In this document: positions 14,313 to 20,086 of the stretch, piece after piece
Position numbering within the stretch: position 1 is the first letter of the stretch
Layout of the letters: every line of letters begins with the position of its first letter
Source: Bacteroidia bacterium
GTDB lineage: Bacteria > Bacteroidota > Bacteroidia > Flavobacteriales_D > Sanyastnellaceae
NCBI GenBank assembly: GCA_030427925.1
Contig: JAUICJ010000008.1
Location: 1-64,000, forward strand
DNA: 64,000 nt
Reading direction: 5' to 3'
Program-made: the position numbers and the translations under genes
Notes under the pieces: model-generated
Database searches by the model: none
Told to the model about the DNA's origin: nothing
What the model saw: the letters and a program-made list of their open reading frames with translations, nothing else

Positions 14313-14885
14313 TCAGTCGCGGTAGTTCTGCATCACCTCCTCGAAGGTGTTCTTGAACTGATCGTAGTTGTATTCCGCCCGGATGCGCTCTTCCTGTTGC
14401 AGGCTTTCCACGTAAGCGTCGGCGATGTCCGCGCCGCTCAATTCGATGGCGAGGTAGGCGATGTACTTCTTGTCCGTGGTCATGGTCAATTCTTGACAAA
14501 TCGTAATGGCGCCATTCAACCGCTGGTTCACAATCGTGCGCGACAACTCGTTGAATTTGCTCGTTGCTTCTTCGGTCGTGTTGAAGCCCAATTGCGTGGC
14601 TTGGTTTTCAGCGACCAATTCGACCGTGGCCTCGATGGCCCGCGCCAGGGTGGCTTCTGCGTTTTGGCGGGCAATCTTCTTCGCGATTTCACGCTGGGGG
14701 CTGCTGCCGGTGGCCGAGGCCCGGAAGTAGTCCTTGTTGGTCAAGAATTCCGGTCCAGAGCAGTATTCAACAATGCGAACCTCTCCGCGGGTGTCCGGCG
14801 TCGAGGTGGTGGCGGCTTCTTTTTTGCAGCCCACAAAGGCGAGGGGCAAGGTGAGGGCCAAAGCGGCGAAGGTGCGTACGTTCAT
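14313..14885 (-). CDS. Lipoprotein with LPP20-like helix, last gene of envelope operon
   Basis: A 190-residue predicted lipoprotein with signal peptide and lipobox LAFVGC, so it is anchored by the Cys at about residue 20. Its centre, IAKKIARQNAEATLARAIEATV, has the spacing of the helix found in LPP20 domains, where residues of the form A.N..A...LA recur. A C-terminal charged helix (QQEERIRAEYNYDQF) follows. It lies 68 bp after the larger LPP20-type gene and probably belongs to the same transcript. I choose ATG 14885 because it places a normal signal peptide. The function is inferred only as an envelope structural or assembly factor. Confidence 0.7.
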   Translation of the reverse strand: MNVRTFAALALTLPLAFVGCKKEAATTSTPDTRGEVRIVEYCSGPEFLTNKDYFRASATGSSPQREIAKKIARQNAEATLARAIEATVELVAENQATQLGFNTTEEATSKFNELSRTIVNQRLNGAITICQELTMTTDKKYIAYLAIELSGADIADAYVESLQQEERIRAEYNYDQFKNTFEEVMQNYRD

Positions 14886-14953
14886 GGTCGTAGAATTGGG
14901 TTTCTTTTGTTGTTGTGTGAGCGAAATTCGTGCCAAAACAGGTTTCAACCGAA

Positions 14954-16333
14954 TCACTGGTACAGCGATTCCAACATTTCTTGCAGGAAACTGCCCCGGA
15001 TTTCCATGCTGGCTTTCGTGTAGGCGGCCTGCGATGCGGCATCCCAGCTGAGTTGAACGCCTTTTACTCGGTCCATGGTTTTGTGAAGGACCAGGTCTCC
15101 GTTGCGGTCCATCAGCTGGATGGATGCGTTGAGCAGAGCGGTGTGGAATCCTTGTCCTTGACCTCCTTGTTGGGTGTCTGAAGTCAATTCGATGATGAGG
15201 TCCGCTTGGGCTTCGGAATCGGTGATGCGCACGCCGCGCTCGGAGAGGGCGCTGCTGAGGGCTTGCTGCAAGGCGCGGTCGCGCGTGGGTCCGCCAAATG
15301 CCGATTCCCGACCGCTGATGAAGACCGTGGGCTCAACGAGTCGGATGGGCACCAGGAGTTCCGGTGCTTCGAGCCCGTCAATCAAGGCCTGGACCGCAAG
15401 TCCGGGCAGTTCGGGCATCAGGGCGTCCACGTCGATGTTCACGCGCAATTCCGCCCGCCGCACGCCCGGATCGAATCCATCGATGACCACGGCTGCCATG
15501 CCGTCGCCGTTCGTCCGAACGACCTTGCGGTGGGGCAAGGTGCCACGGCTGTACCGCGCGATGAGGGGAAGGTTCGGTACGGCTCCTCCTTCGAGCAAGG
15601 TTTGGACCACCACTTCCCCACGATAATGCGTGCCAAATCCCAATTCCACTTCCGAAACCGACGCCTCCAATCGCAGCCCGTTCAAGACGCGGTTGATGCC
15701 GATCAAGCAGGCCTGGTCCACGGCCACCCGCTCGCCCGCGGCATTCTGCCACCAGTTCACCTCGCCCCAATACCGCTCCAAGGCCGAAAGCCCGCGCACG
15801 AATCGGTCCAATGCGCTCCCGACATCCCGGCTTTGCTCCGCGGCCAATCCCGCTTCGTAGAAACCGGCGGCCACCGCGACGGCCGCGGATTTCCGCTCGG
15901 CTTTGATGCGATCGTACGTGGCCTTGTTCAGCCGGTAATAGGCCCAAACTTCCGTGTCCGTTTCATGCACCCCGACGAGTTCGTACCCTTCGAGGTCTTC
16001 TTGGCTCGAACTGCGGATGTCCTCTTCGAAGCGCTGCGAAACCCGCGCATCCCGTTGCAGGGTATTCAGCACGGATGTGGCTTCCACTTTGACGGAAATT
16101 TCGCCCGCGAGGGCGCTCAGCGCGCGGCTTTTTGCCACTTCTGCCGCGTTGAACGGGTGCTGCGCTTTGGAGGTCGAGGCAATGCCCAGGTAATAGCCGG
16201 GCATTGCAGGACGCTCCGTGACCCAAGCCGGCGTTGAGTCAGCAAGCTGCCGCTGGCTGCCGCACGAAGCGAACAACAAGGCCGCAAACAAAGCGCCCAG
16301 CACACCGTTTCTCCAACGCAGCAAATGCATCAT
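14954..16333 (-). CDS. LPP20 family lipoprotein
   Basis: A 459-residue lipoprotein (lipobox LLFASC, Cys about residue 24). The N-terminal third is a clear LPP20-type domain (about 35-160): PAWVTERPAMPGYYLGIAST, then AAEVAKSRALSALAGEISVKV and a YYRLNKATYDRI strand. The central part is helical, and the C-terminal third (about 335-450) includes RDRALQQALSSALSERGVRI and ADLIIELTS, like a second TolB-N/CsgG-type fold. LPP20 relatives include FlgP, which builds ring or disk structures under the outer membrane of flagellar motors. The start overlaps the stop of the CsgG-like gene by four bases. Confidence 0.78.
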   Translation of the reverse strand: MMHLLRWRNGVLGALFAALLFASCGSQRQLADSTPAWVTERPAMPGYYLGIASTSKAQHPFNAAEVAKSRALSALAGEISVKVEATSVLNTLQRDARVSQRFEEDIRSSSQEDLEGYELVGVHETDTEVWAYYRLNKATYDRIKAERKSAAVAVAAGFYEAGLAAEQSRDVGSALDRFVRGLSALERYWGEVNWWQNAAGERVAVDQACLIGINRVLNGLRLEASVSEVELGFGTHYRGEVVVQTLLEGGAVPNLPLIARYSRGTLPHRKVVRTNGDGMAAVVIDGFDPGVRRAELRVNIDVDALMPELPGLAVQALIDGLEAPELLVPIRLVEPTVFISGRESAFGGPTRDRALQQALSSALSERGVRITDSEAQADLIIELTSDTQQGGQGQGFHTALLNASIQLMDRNGDLVLHKTMDRVKGVQLSWDAASQAAYTKASMEIRGSFLQEMLESLYQ

Positions 16334-17694
16334 GGGACGATTTCAAGCAAATTCCGTTCCAAGGCTTCGCGAATGCCCTTTGCCGATTCCTGGACCGCAT
16401 CATTCAGCAAGGTCGATTCAGCGATCAATTCTTGACGCGAAGCAAGCAGCCCTTGCAATTCCCGCTGGCCGCTGCGGTTCACCGTTCCGCTCATGTTCGC
16501 AGGAAACAGGTTGTTGCGGTTGCCCGTGTACTTGGCGAAGCGGATGGCGTCGCTCTTCGAGCGCGTGATCATTTCTGACGCTAGCGTTTCCCCGGTGGCG
16601 AGCGAAATCAAAGCCAAATTGAACGTCACCGAAACCTCTCGACTCTGCTCAAATTCCATGTACGTAACGGCCCGGTACTGCGTGTCGTAATACTTCTTCC
16701 CCTCCGCATTCACCTTCTCGACGCGGTACGATTCGAAGCCCTGACGGGTGTAGCGCCGCAGTTCGGTTTGGCTGGCTTCGTAGGACACGACGGTGCCTTT
16801 CATCAACGCTTTCGCGCCCAAGAGTCCCCCGACTTCGATCGCGGTATTCTCGTCGAGCATGCCGCTCAACGCGAGCTGCTGCTCTTGCAAAATCATTTGC
16901 TGGTTCTCGCGATCCACCACTTTAAGGAAGGGGTCCGCCGAGTTCGCCACTTCCTGCATCACATAGGTGCGGAACTTGTTTTCGAGGTTCGGCCGGTCAG
17001 AACCGTTTTGGAAGCCGATGACAGCGATGGTGTAAAGGCCCTGAGCGAGCGCCTCGTCTTTCAAGGCAGCGGCGTCTTTGAAGTCCAGCTTTCGGCCGAT
17101 GACCTCGTCAAACGCGCGGTATGCTGACCGGTATTCCCCCACACTCAAGGCCGTTTTGCCGCTGCGGTAGCGCGGCTCGCAGTAGGCGATGTCCGCTTGC
17201 AAATCGGCGTCGCGAAAGCTCGGGTCGAGCCGAACGATTTCCTCGAACTTCGAGAGCGCGTCGTTGAAGCGTTCTGTTGCGAGGTCTTCCATGCCTTCTT
17301 CGTACAGATCGTCCATGTGAGCTGACTTCACTTGGTTGAACGCCATCTTGTGACGTTCTGGGAAGTCGAGCCGAACGTTAACGCCACCGATTTTATCGAA
17401 GTAAGCCATAGCGGCTTCGTACGTCCGCACCGCTTCAGCGCGGTCGTTGAGGGCAACGGCGCTTTGGAAGTCGTCCAACCGCATGTTCAGCACGCCTTGG
17501 CCCGCGCGTTGCAGGGAAGCAAGGGCGTCGACGTGCGACCGATCTTTCATCACGGCGGCGTAATAGAGGTTTGCGGCTTGTTCGATTTGGCCTGCATTCT
17601 CCAATTCTGAACCCTTCTTAACGAGGGCCTTCGGTCCATTGCAGCCGACGAACAACAAGGCCGCGAAGGCCACCACCCAAGCTGCAAACTTCAT
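16330..17694 (-). CDS. TPR and CsgG-like domain lipoprotein
   Basis: A 454-residue lipoprotein (lipobox LLFVGC, Cys about residue 18). Residues 25-215 form repeated helical hairpins of TPR type (AGQIEQAANLYYAAV, and FNDALSKFEEIVRLDP). Residues about 220-330 look like CsgG/LpoB/TolB-N: YTIAVIGFQN, a segment on dependence of the protein's factor (VVDRENQQMILQEQQLALSG), and GGLLGAKALMKGTVVSYE. CsgG-type domains form outer-membrane secretion pores or periplasmic rings. It sits between the DUF4476 gene (4 bp overlap upstream) and the LPP20 gene (4 bp overlap downstream), which argues for one complex. Confidence 0.75.
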   Translation of the reverse strand: MKFAAWVVAFAALLFVGCNGPKALVKKGSELENAGQIEQAANLYYAAVMKDRSHVDALASLQRAGQGVLNMRLDDFQSAVALNDRAEAVRTYEAAMAYFDKIGGVNVRLDFPERHKMAFNQVKSAHMDDLYEEGMEDLATERFNDALSKFEEIVRLDPSFRDADLQADIAYCEPRYRSGKTALSVGEYRSAYRAFDEVIGRKLDFKDAAALKDEALAQGLYTIAVIGFQNGSDRPNLENKFRTYVMQEVANSADPFLKVVDRENQQMILQEQQLALSGMLDENTAIEVGGLLGAKALMKGTVVSYEASQTELRRYTRQGFESYRVEKVNAEGKKYYDTQYRAVTYMEFEQSREVSVTFNLALISLATGETLASEMITRSKSDAIRFAKYTGNRNNLFPANMSGTVNRSGQRELQGLLASRQELIAESTLLNDAVQESAKGIREALERNLLEIVP

Positions 17695-18626
17695 TCTCCA
17701 ATGGCTTCTTGCAAGTCGTCGATGGAGAGTTCAAATTCGAACGCGTCGTAGACTTGGTAGTAGTTGCTGGGATCCACGCAACGGCTGTGAGCGAAGATGG
17801 CGAATTCGAGCCGGCTGTCTTCGAACGTAAACACTTGCATGACTTGCTTGATTTGCTTGGCCGTGAGGTAGTTGCCGGAGAGGGGGGCCTTCGCAGTGGA
17901 GAGTTTGCTGTCTTCAAAGGTCTTGCTGCGGATGGCGTTCAAATAGTCGTTGAAATCCATGGAAGACATCGCCACGGGGCCGGCCGGCGCAGCGGGTTCG
18001 GCAACGGGCTCGTCCTCCCATCCGCCGCCCCAGTTGCCGGTGCTCGTGCTGGTGGTGGTGGTCGTAACGTTCACGTTCACGCTGCCGAGGGCACCTGCTG
18101 CGGCTTGCATCATGTTGCCGAGGTTGACGTTCATGGAAACCGACTCCGTGGACGTGCCGCCGTTGGCCTGGACACTCATCGTGGCTTGGCCGTTGCTGGG
18201 AGCGATGACGGTGCCAACATCTGCAGCACCGGCGTCATATCCGGCAGGAGGAGGCATCGATGAAGGTGCGTCGGCCATCGGAGCGTATCCGTTCATGCGC
18301 AACACGTAATCGCCCTTGCGGTTGAGTTTGACGAGGAAGGTGGAGTGCACGCCGTTTTCGATGCCGACGTTGTTTTGGGCAAAGTCCGCGAGCGTGGGGT
18401 CTTCAAAATCGATGCGCACTTGGTAGAAACCTGCTTGCATGTCCTTCACCTCTACCCGTGGTGAAGGGGCGGCGTTTTGTTTCATTTGGTTCACGTACAG
18501 GGTGAAGGTTTCACCGAGCTCCGAGAACACTTCAAGTTCGCCTTGAGCACTGAGCTGTTGAGGTGCCAAAATGCCCGCCACTGCGAGCATTCCAATGATT
18601 CCAATTCGTTGCATGGTTCGGTTCAT
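17691..18626 (-). CDS. DUF4476 domain secreted protein
   Basis: A 311-residue exported protein. The signal peptide ends near QQLSAQ (about residue 28), and a beta-rich domain (about 30-110) follows. A long low-complexity Ala/Gly/Thr/Ser linker (about 115-210, including a run of Thr residues) leads to a DUF4476 domain (about 215-305) with the repeated F.DSRL pattern (KTFEDSKL, FTFEDSRLEFA). The domain is widespread in animals and Bacteroidota without a known activity. It is the first gene of the lipoprotein operon. ATG 18626 is preceded by TAAATTGC (GCAATTTA on the plus strand, 18635-18642), a near-consensus -7 element eight bases upstream. Confidence 0.8.
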   Translation of the reverse strand: MNRTMQRIGIIGMLAVAGILAPQQLSAQGELEVFSELGETFTLYVNQMKQNAAPSPRVEVKDMQAGFYQVRIDFEDPTLADFAQNNVGIENGVHSTFLVKLNRKGDYVLRMNGYAPMADAPSSMPPPAGYDAGAADVGTVIAPSNGQATMSVQANGGTSTESVSMNVNLGNMMQAAAGALGSVNVNVTTTTTSTSTGNWGGGWEDEPVAEPAAPAGPVAMSSMDFNDYLNAIRSKTFEDSKLSTAKAPLSGNYLTAKQIKQVMQVFTFEDSRLEFAIFAHSRCVDPSNYYQVYDAFEFELSIDDLQEAIGE

Positions 18627-18748
18627 TTGATGGTGCAATTTAGACAAGTCACCGCACCTGTGTTCAAATCCTGTGCCAAATCCGCGCCGACAATCCGTAG
18701 TTCGCGGCTTACCTTGGCGTTCGAAACCAACTGTTGATCCTGCACGCC

Positions 18749-20086
18749 GTGAAGAATTTGTTGATTTTGGGAGCCGGTCGCTCGAGTTCTACGCTGATCA
18801 AAGAAGCGCTCGTTCGCGCAGAAGCGATGGGATGGAACGTGCTCGTGGGGGATGTGAACGGGGATTTGGCTCAAGCCAAAATCGAGGGCCATCCCCGAGG
18901 GACGGCCTTCGCGTTGGACCCGCACGACACGGAGGAGCGCGATCGGCGCATTCGGGAGTCGGATTTGGTCATTTCCATGGTTCCCGCTTTTTTGCACGCC
19001 CCCATTGCCGAGGTGGCCATTCGCGCGGGCAAACCCTGCATCACCCCGAGTTACATTGCTCCGGACATGGCCGCACTGGACGGTTTGGCCCGCGAGCACG
19101 GCGTCCTCGTCCTGAACGAAGTCGGCCTCGACCCGGGCATCGATCACCTCAGCGCCATGAAGGTCCTCGACGAAATTCGCGAGCAGGGAGGCGAAATCAC
19201 GTCCTTTGAATCCTTCTGTGGCGGACTCATTGCTCCCGAGTCCGACACGAATCCTTGGCACTACAAGTTCAGTTGGAACCCCCGCAACGTGGTCATTGCG
19301 GGCCAAGCCGGCGCAGCCACCTTCCTCGATGGTGGCCGCGTGCGCATGGTCCCGCCGCATCGGCTGTTCCAGCAGGCCCGTTCAGTGGAAGTCGGCGGCA
19401 TGGCGTTCGAAGGCTATCCGAACCGCGATTCGTTGGCCTACCGGGAGCGCTACGGGTTGACGAATGCCCAAACCCTCGTGCGCGGCACCCTTCGCGGCGC
19501 TGGGTTTTGCGAGGCGTGGCAAGCGTTCGTCACCCTCGGGTGCGTCCGCGATGATGCCCGGCTCACGTGGCAGCAGGGGGTGAGCTGGCCGGTTTGGCTC
19601 AGGACGTTTCTTCCCGCCGAATACGCGGGACTCGGCATTCGCGATGCGGTGGCGGCGTGCACGGGCGCCTCGGAATCCGCACTGGACAAATGGGCTTGGC
19701 TCGGTTTGTTCGACGATTCCCAGGGCCCGAAGACGACGGAAGGCACCCCGGCCGATGTGTTGCAGGAGTTGCTGGAGTCCGCTTGGGTCCTCGAACCGGA
19801 AGACCGGGACATGATCGTCATGTGGCACCGGTTCGGCTACACGTTGCGTGGCGAAAACCGGGAGCGCATCAGTGCCCTGCGCTTGGATGGGCGGGACAGC
19901 ACCTTCACGGCAATGTCCGACACGGTGGGCATGCCGATGCTCCTCGCCGCGGAGGTCCTGCTCGAAGAGGGCGGCTTCGGACGAACGGGGGTGGAGGCGC
20001 CGATGGACCGGGCTTATTACGACGTGCTGCTGCCGCGATTGGAAGCCTGGGGCGTGCGATTTGAGGAAACCGATCGCGCGGTGTGA
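18749..20086 (+). CDS. Saccharopine dehydrogenase (L-glutamate forming)
   Basis: A 445-residue protein with an N-terminal Rossmann fold (LLILGAGRSSSTLIK), VISMVPAFLHAPIAEVAIRAGK, and the segment LVLNEVGLDPGIDHLSAM, which carries the substrate-binding Asp-Pro-Gly-Ile-Asp-His motif of this family. It oxidises or reduces the saccharopine intermediate in lysine metabolism. Whether lysine is degraded or made here cannot be decided, but lysine breakdown is usual in Bacteroidota carrying this gene. The GTG at 18749 is preferred; a TTG at 18734 is the alternative. The following lipoprotein gene starts within the stop codon (TGATG), so the two are coupled. Confidence 0.88.
   Translation: MKNLLILGAGRSSSTLIKEALVRAEAMGWNVLVGDVNGDLAQAKIEGHPRGTAFALDPHDTEERDRRIRESDLVISMVPAFLHAPIAEVAIRAGKPCITPSYIAPDMAALDGLAREHGVLVLNEVGLDPGIDHLSAMKVLDEIREQGGEITSFESFCGGLIAPESDTNPWHYKFSWNPRNVVIAGQAGAATFLDGGRVRMVPPHRLFQQARSVEVGGMAFEGYPNRDSLAYRERYGLTNAQTLVRGTLRGAGFCEAWQAFVTLGCVRDDARLTWQQGVSWPVWLRTFLPAEYAGLGIRDAVAACTGASESALDKWAWLGLFDDSQGPKTTEGTPADVLQELLESAWVLEPEDRDMIVMWHRFGYTLRGENRERISALRLDGRDSTFTAMSDTVGMPMLLAAEVLLEEGGFGRTGVEAPMDRAYYDVLLPRLEAWGVRFEETDRAV

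Follow-up and report, generated by a model that had tools for sequence, protein, structure and literature searches.

Ring-forming proteins of the LPP20 and CsgG types are known mostly from flagella, curli and polysaccharide exporters, and the present locus raises the question of what such proteins may do when they are encoded together in a member of the Bacteroidota. The original prediction, made from the letters of the DNA, was that four exported proteins form a dedicated envelope assembly, perhaps a scaffold or an export pore. Here we followed up this prediction by profile searches, structural modelling and comparison of gene neighbourhoods.

Operon layout and export signals

The window, which is the whole stretch of 64,000 nucleotides that was analysed, holds four same-strand ORFs that are transcribed in the order A, B, C and D (Table 1). 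The A/B and B/C junctions each overlap by 4 bp (17691-17694 and 16330-16333), and with the likelier start of D the gap between C and D is 68 bp; A-B-C-D is one operon. Both the common direction of the genes and the overlaps among the first three had been predicted, as had the export of all four products, three of them as lipoproteins.

Table 1. Positions of the operon genes and their divergent neighbour in the window, with predicted products (domain limits in residues)
Gene	Position	Strand	Predicted product
A	ORF 17691-18647, probable start ATG 18626 (17691..18626)	minus	DUF4476, secreted
B	16330..17694	minus	lipoprotein, TPR solenoid (about 20-218) and CsgG/PelC/FlgT-M-type domain (about 219-454)
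C	14954..16333	minus	lipoprotein, LPP20/SHS2 with beta-hairpin insert (46-135), helical (136-217), Ig/MG-like (218-333), CsgG/TolB-N/LptE-like (333-458)
D	ORF 14313-14957, ATG 14885 likelier as lipoprotein start (14313..14885)	minus	small lipoprotein, LPP20-like
Upstream neighbour	18734-20086	plus	saccharopine-dehydrogenase-like

Gene A encodes an ordinary signal peptide (..QLSAQG), while B, C and D carry the lipoboxes LLFVGC (cysteine C18), LFASC (C23 in P0003) and LAFVGC (C20), respectively. As the simple lipobox pattern was too strict, the lipobox cysteines were judged by invariant alignment columns, and they proved invariant in 68 aligned sequences of B, 73 of C and 51 of D. In lipoproteins of the Bacteroidota the signal for surface export is acidic. 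The residues after the lipobox are basic or neutral in all three proteins (CNGPK in B, CGSQR in C and CKKE in D), hence B, C and D probably face the periplasm. No NCBIfam model scored above its cut-off against any of the four proteins, and the families of A, C and D are unnamed by these models.

Conservation of the B-C-D block

Two sets of loci were compared. The first consisted of 29 relatives' loci with flanks, the window being one of them, and the second came from a named-genome scan with D, where 73 of the best 80 of 248 relatives hold B, C and D. The labels among these best 80 are nearly all Flavobacteriales, Crocinitomicaceae, Cryomorphaceae or Bacteroidetes MAGs, in addition to some Chryseobacterium gleum MAGs and one Euryarchaeota MAG. 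Colinearity of the three genes holds in 29/29 relatives' loci and 72/73 named-MAG loci (101/102 in total, with L141 rearranged), frequently with 4-bp overlaps. This order is conserved far beyond chance and bears out the conserved neighbourhood on which the original prediction depended.

The original prediction also gave the DUF4476 protein a defining place at the head of the cluster, and this part had to be given up. A consists of a conserved N-terminal domain (about 28-115), an Ala/Gly/Thr linker and a C-terminal DUF4476 domain (74.7 bits and 7.5e-21 against Pfam), and it was found in 13/29 relatives' loci and 24/73 named-MAG loci, thus missing from more than half, while DUF4476 was seen also in genomes without the operon. 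DUF4476 is therefore ruled out as a core member, and A is an optional associate, a facultative head of the operon. The open-access literature on DUF4476 concerned spiralian animals only. As the downstream neighbours vary between genera and A is optional, the conserved unit is B-C-D, and this block is a shared feature of uncultured Flavobacteriales from the sea and from fresh water. The usual upstream neighbour, found in most loci, is the divergent saccharopine-dehydrogenase-like gene; this pairing is conserved and probably functionally unrelated.

B-type proteins were found in 46/60 genomes, the window's own included. With paralogue-only matches left out, 44 of the 60 genomes have B together with C and the other 16 have neither, an agreement of 60/60; two of these 16 come from the same family as the window, with a completeness of 78-83%. 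This joint presence and absence, along with the order kept in 101/102 loci and the existence of a further family (L182) where C is paired with another CsgG-type protein, makes it improbable that the genes are functionally independent lipoprotein genes held together by operon inertia only, an explanation that the stand-alone paralogues of B (L052-L058) and D (L203-L205) would otherwise favour. The evolutionary rates of B and C also co-vary beyond the neighbour gene (partial r 0.45-0.72), but as B correlates equally with an unrelated lptD-like gene (0.67), we do not take this as specific evidence.

Many relatives have the stand-alone paralogue of B (22-29% identity) next to dephospho-CoA kinase-like and ribulose-phosphate epimerase-like genes, with neither C nor D beside it. 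The D-like LPP20 lipoprotein stands alone in the window's own genome on contig C13 (L203:7347-7901) and in the relatives L204 and L205.

Outside these relatives, C-like proteins were found in 26/296 genomes drawn across the phylum. In one family (L178-L180) full-length C adjoins D with no B as neighbour, and no good B orthologue was found in the genomes of this family, where the best profile match (E 7.5e-6) lies elsewhere in the genome. In another family (L177) the neighbour of full-length C is an MltC-type transglycosylase, with a D-like protein close by. A third family (L182) has full-length C after a short CsgG-type protein that is not B, which indicates that LPP20 proteins are paired with CsgG-type proteins other than B as well. 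In L184, L187 and L189, C-like LPP20 proteins that are shorter or more distant adjoin a protein of approximately 430 aa, an uncharacterised pair; the partner was assigned to DUF6175 by Pfam in L184, and by similar size and sequence in L187 and L189. A search of the open-access literature returned nothing on "LPP20 family lipoprotein" or DUF6175, and nothing relevant on LPP20 in Flavobacteri-.

Predicted folds of B and C, and the profile of D

B scores 47.6 bits against Pfam CsgG (PF03783, cut-off 20.8) with TPR matched as well, and all 29 aligned B sequences match the CsgG family. The AlphaFold2 model of B (mean pLDDT 90.7) has helices at 21-219, which make up the TPR part, followed by the CsgG-type domain with long strands at 294-309, 313-328, 334-364 and 370-388. 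Structural matching of this domain against the PDB gave the PelC dodecamer (Z 14.2, 125 residues, 2.5 A) and CsgG (VIA Z 13.6 over 175 residues, rmsd 5.6; Foldseek E 7.8e-6), with further matches to FlgT (13.6), the flagellar LPHT ring (13.3) and TolB (11.7). According to the model the C-terminal domain of B thus has the CsgG/PelC/FlgT-M fold. Comparison with single sequences was weak, as hhalign against the E. coli CsgG sequence gave 4.6% and a sequence search of the domain against the PDB found no CsgG, hence the relation between B and CsgG rests on the Pfam profile and the fold.

C scores 30.1 bits against Pfam LPP20 (PF02169, cut-off 25.9), which is matched by 29/29 aligned C sequences (best E 9.8e-17), and it matches the LPP20-family protein 4kzs in the PDB (E 2.3e-4). 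This likeness at the sequence level to 4kzs, a solved lipoprotein of the family to which Helicobacter Lpp20 also belongs, is confined to the LPP20 domain; the part of C that aligns well with 4kzs is limited to profile positions 42-139, and the Ig-like and CsgG-type parts of C are without counterpart there. In the AlphaFold2 model of C (mean pLDDT 89.0) strand beta1 (46-54) and a helix (62-78) are followed by an extra hairpin (83-93/96-106), the strands beta2 (117-123) and beta3 (127-135), and a helix at 136-166. The Ig/MG-like domain matches MG4 of complement C5 (Z 12.0), and the C-terminal domain is by structural matching of the CsgG/PelC/LptE/TraT type (CsgG 11.3, PelC 10.8, TraT decamer 10.3). 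FlgT aligns to residues 45-458 of C with the SHS2-type domain first and the TolB-like domain after, though the spacing of the domains differs and the overall rmsd is 27 A. The LPP20 and CsgG folds of the original prediction were in this way recovered by both profiles and models, and so was the kinship with ring-forming families, with PelC, CsgG, FlgT and the LPHT ring matched by B and FlgT by C.

D (P0004) has no Pfam match on its own, while 18/29 aligned sequences match LPP20 weakly (best E 0.0017). When compared by hhalign with the LPP20 domain of C it gave 86.8%, where 11 other domain pairings gave at most 5.8%, and the alignment runs through the helix and the insert segment of the C domain. 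Judged by sequence, D appears to be LPP20-like. In addition to the lipobox cysteine it has two cysteines, C42 and C130, that are invariant in 51 aligned sequences.

A ring, a channel or a regulator

The original prediction noted that the window shows no flagellar or curli genes, and this holds well beyond the window. CsgF was found in 0/60 genomes and FlgI in 0/60 genomes, the window's own included, with positive results for the E. coli control of CsgF and the controls of FlgI. By these two markers we reject curli or a flagellum in the genome, and with no co-occurring FlgI in the 60 genomes we also reject a role as flagellar accessory of the FlgO/P/T type.

The export pore that had been suggested as one possible function did not stand up to closer analysis. 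Such a channel would have B as an oligomeric outer-membrane barrel through which A or some other substrate is exported, while C and D form a periplasmic collar. It would agree with the CsgG family match in every aligned B sequence, with the extended antiparallel strands that the B model places at the position of the first transmembrane hairpin of CsgG, and with A being secreted and encoded first. In the hairpin at 313-348 of B, however, both faces are hydrophilic (mean hydropathy -1.2 to -1.5, 17-47% charged), whereas in E. coli CsgG the same hydropathy analysis detects one hydrophobic face in two or more of the four transmembrane strands. As CsgF is absent in 60/60 genomes and A is missing from most loci, we regard a CsgG-like export channel as improbable. 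A transmembrane pore in B is unsupported, on the hydropathy argument only, as the hairpin is without a lipid-facing hydrophobic face, and the same hairpin, being non-amphipathic, and the absence of csgF speak against B as the curli channel CsgG proper. B thus shares the family and fold of its C-terminal domain with CsgG and with PelC, the ring of the Pel polysaccharide system, but unlike these it has an N-terminal TPR solenoid.

An accessory role in type IX secretion or gliding seems very improbable. SprA was found in 60/60 genomes, those of the window and of every relative, but since the 16 genomes lacking B and C are among these it gives no signal of co-occurrence, and no type IX secretion gene was recognised beside the operon.

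A study of the Campylobacter motor found that in this protein family ring oligomerisation correlates with an insert placed after the SHS2 helix and before the second strand (PMC12222027). In FlgP this insert builds the continuous beta-sheet of the rings, and it is seen in FlgT too (PMC12222027). The hairpin of C lies between the SHS2 helix (62-78) and the strand 117-123, in a low-confidence part of the model, and by this model C has the hairpin insert of the ring-forming FlgP/FlgT-type SHS2 proteins. As the D segment aligns to this insert and B has the fold of the ring-forming CsgG, PelC and FlgT, formation of a ring is plausible; B-C-D combines known ring modules in a new way. C resembles the FlgT and FlgP of the T-ring and basal disk in its SHS2/LPP20 domain with insert, and FlgT in the TolB-N/CsgG-type domain that follows, but differs in the helical region and the Ig-like domain that separate its two FlgT-like domains, and in being encoded with a TPR-CsgG lipoprotein in genomes without FlgI.

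Ring-forming parts and the lack of flagellar or curli markers taken together suggest that B-C-D is probably an undescribed ring or scaffold. We therefore propose, with about an even chance of being right, that B, C and D are periplasm-facing outer-membrane lipoproteins whose oligomers form a ring or disk-like scaffold tethered beneath the outer membrane, independent of flagella and curli. The CsgG/PelC/FlgT-M-type domains of B, together with the C-terminal domain of C, would assemble side by side into a ring, the LPP20/SHS2 domains of C and D would join in a continuous beta-sheet through their hairpin inserts as in FlgP and FlgT, and the TPR arm of B might recruit a partner. Mutual binding of the three proteins, their oligomerisation, outer-membrane location and periplasmic orientation, and the function are inferred here. 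The low-confidence hairpin of C and the segment at about 270-289 of B, highly conserved and of low confidence within an otherwise confident model, would be consistent with oligomer contacts. Against a ring, the models show the hairpin of C with low confidence, and the match to FlgT has another domain spacing with helical and Ig regions in between. The CsgG-type fold is also that of TolB, LptE, GNA1162 and LpoB, some of which form no rings, hence the fold alone is no proof.

The role of such an assembly would be structural or that of a bushing, not a transmembrane pore, and it could brace the outer membrane or link it to peptidoglycan or another envelope machine. In Helicobacter the lipoprotein FapH, whose gene lies next to flgP, makes a ring at the outer membrane by which the barrier function is protected while the flagellum rotates (PMC11756786). 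By analogy, bracing of the outer membrane as by FapH, in cells without flagella, is our leading proposal. For the crown-like complexes seen by cryo-ET (PMC8455137) no link to the operon was established. More specifically, and more tentatively, we speculate that the Flavobacteriales have an undescribed flagellum-independent ring machine, in which a TPR-CsgG ring of B is stacked with FlgT-like LPP20/Ig/CsgG subunits of C and the small LPP20 disk protein D. If this is true, the modules of the flagellar T-ring and basal disk are part of a wider class of envelope ring scaffolds. The strictly conserved, non-flagellar FlgT-like set of this large, uncultured and ecologically important clade allows a direct test of the idea that flagellar disks derive by recruitment from general outer-membrane scaffolds, and B-C-D points to a function for the unnamed families of A, C and D.

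The main rival to a ring or scaffold is regulation of peptidoglycan enzymes, which we consider unlikely. In this case B, with an LpoA-like TPR arm and an LpoB-like domain, would together with C and D activate or position a PBP or a lytic transglycosylase across the periplasm. B does resemble the PBP activators LpoA and LpoB in combining TPR with a TolB-N-like fold, and it narrowly exceeds the cut-off of Pfam LpoB (22.7 vs 22.3 bits), which 15/29 aligned sequences match, but it falls far under that of the LpoB equivalog NCBIfam TIGR02722 (19.5 bits, cut-off 110.55). No link to a PBP gene was found, no cell-wall gene was seen as conserved operon neighbour, and the window's own genome has no Mltc_N. 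In the phylum, 5/13 Mltc_N genomes have an LPP20-type lipoprotein next to an MltC-type transglycosylase, once with full-length C, but this is not seen in the operon-bearing clade. These five loci (L234, L235, L236, L190 and L177) belong to other families of the phylum, the enzymes combine Mltc_N and SLT domains, and the adjacency points to a possible link between LPP20 and peptidoglycan.
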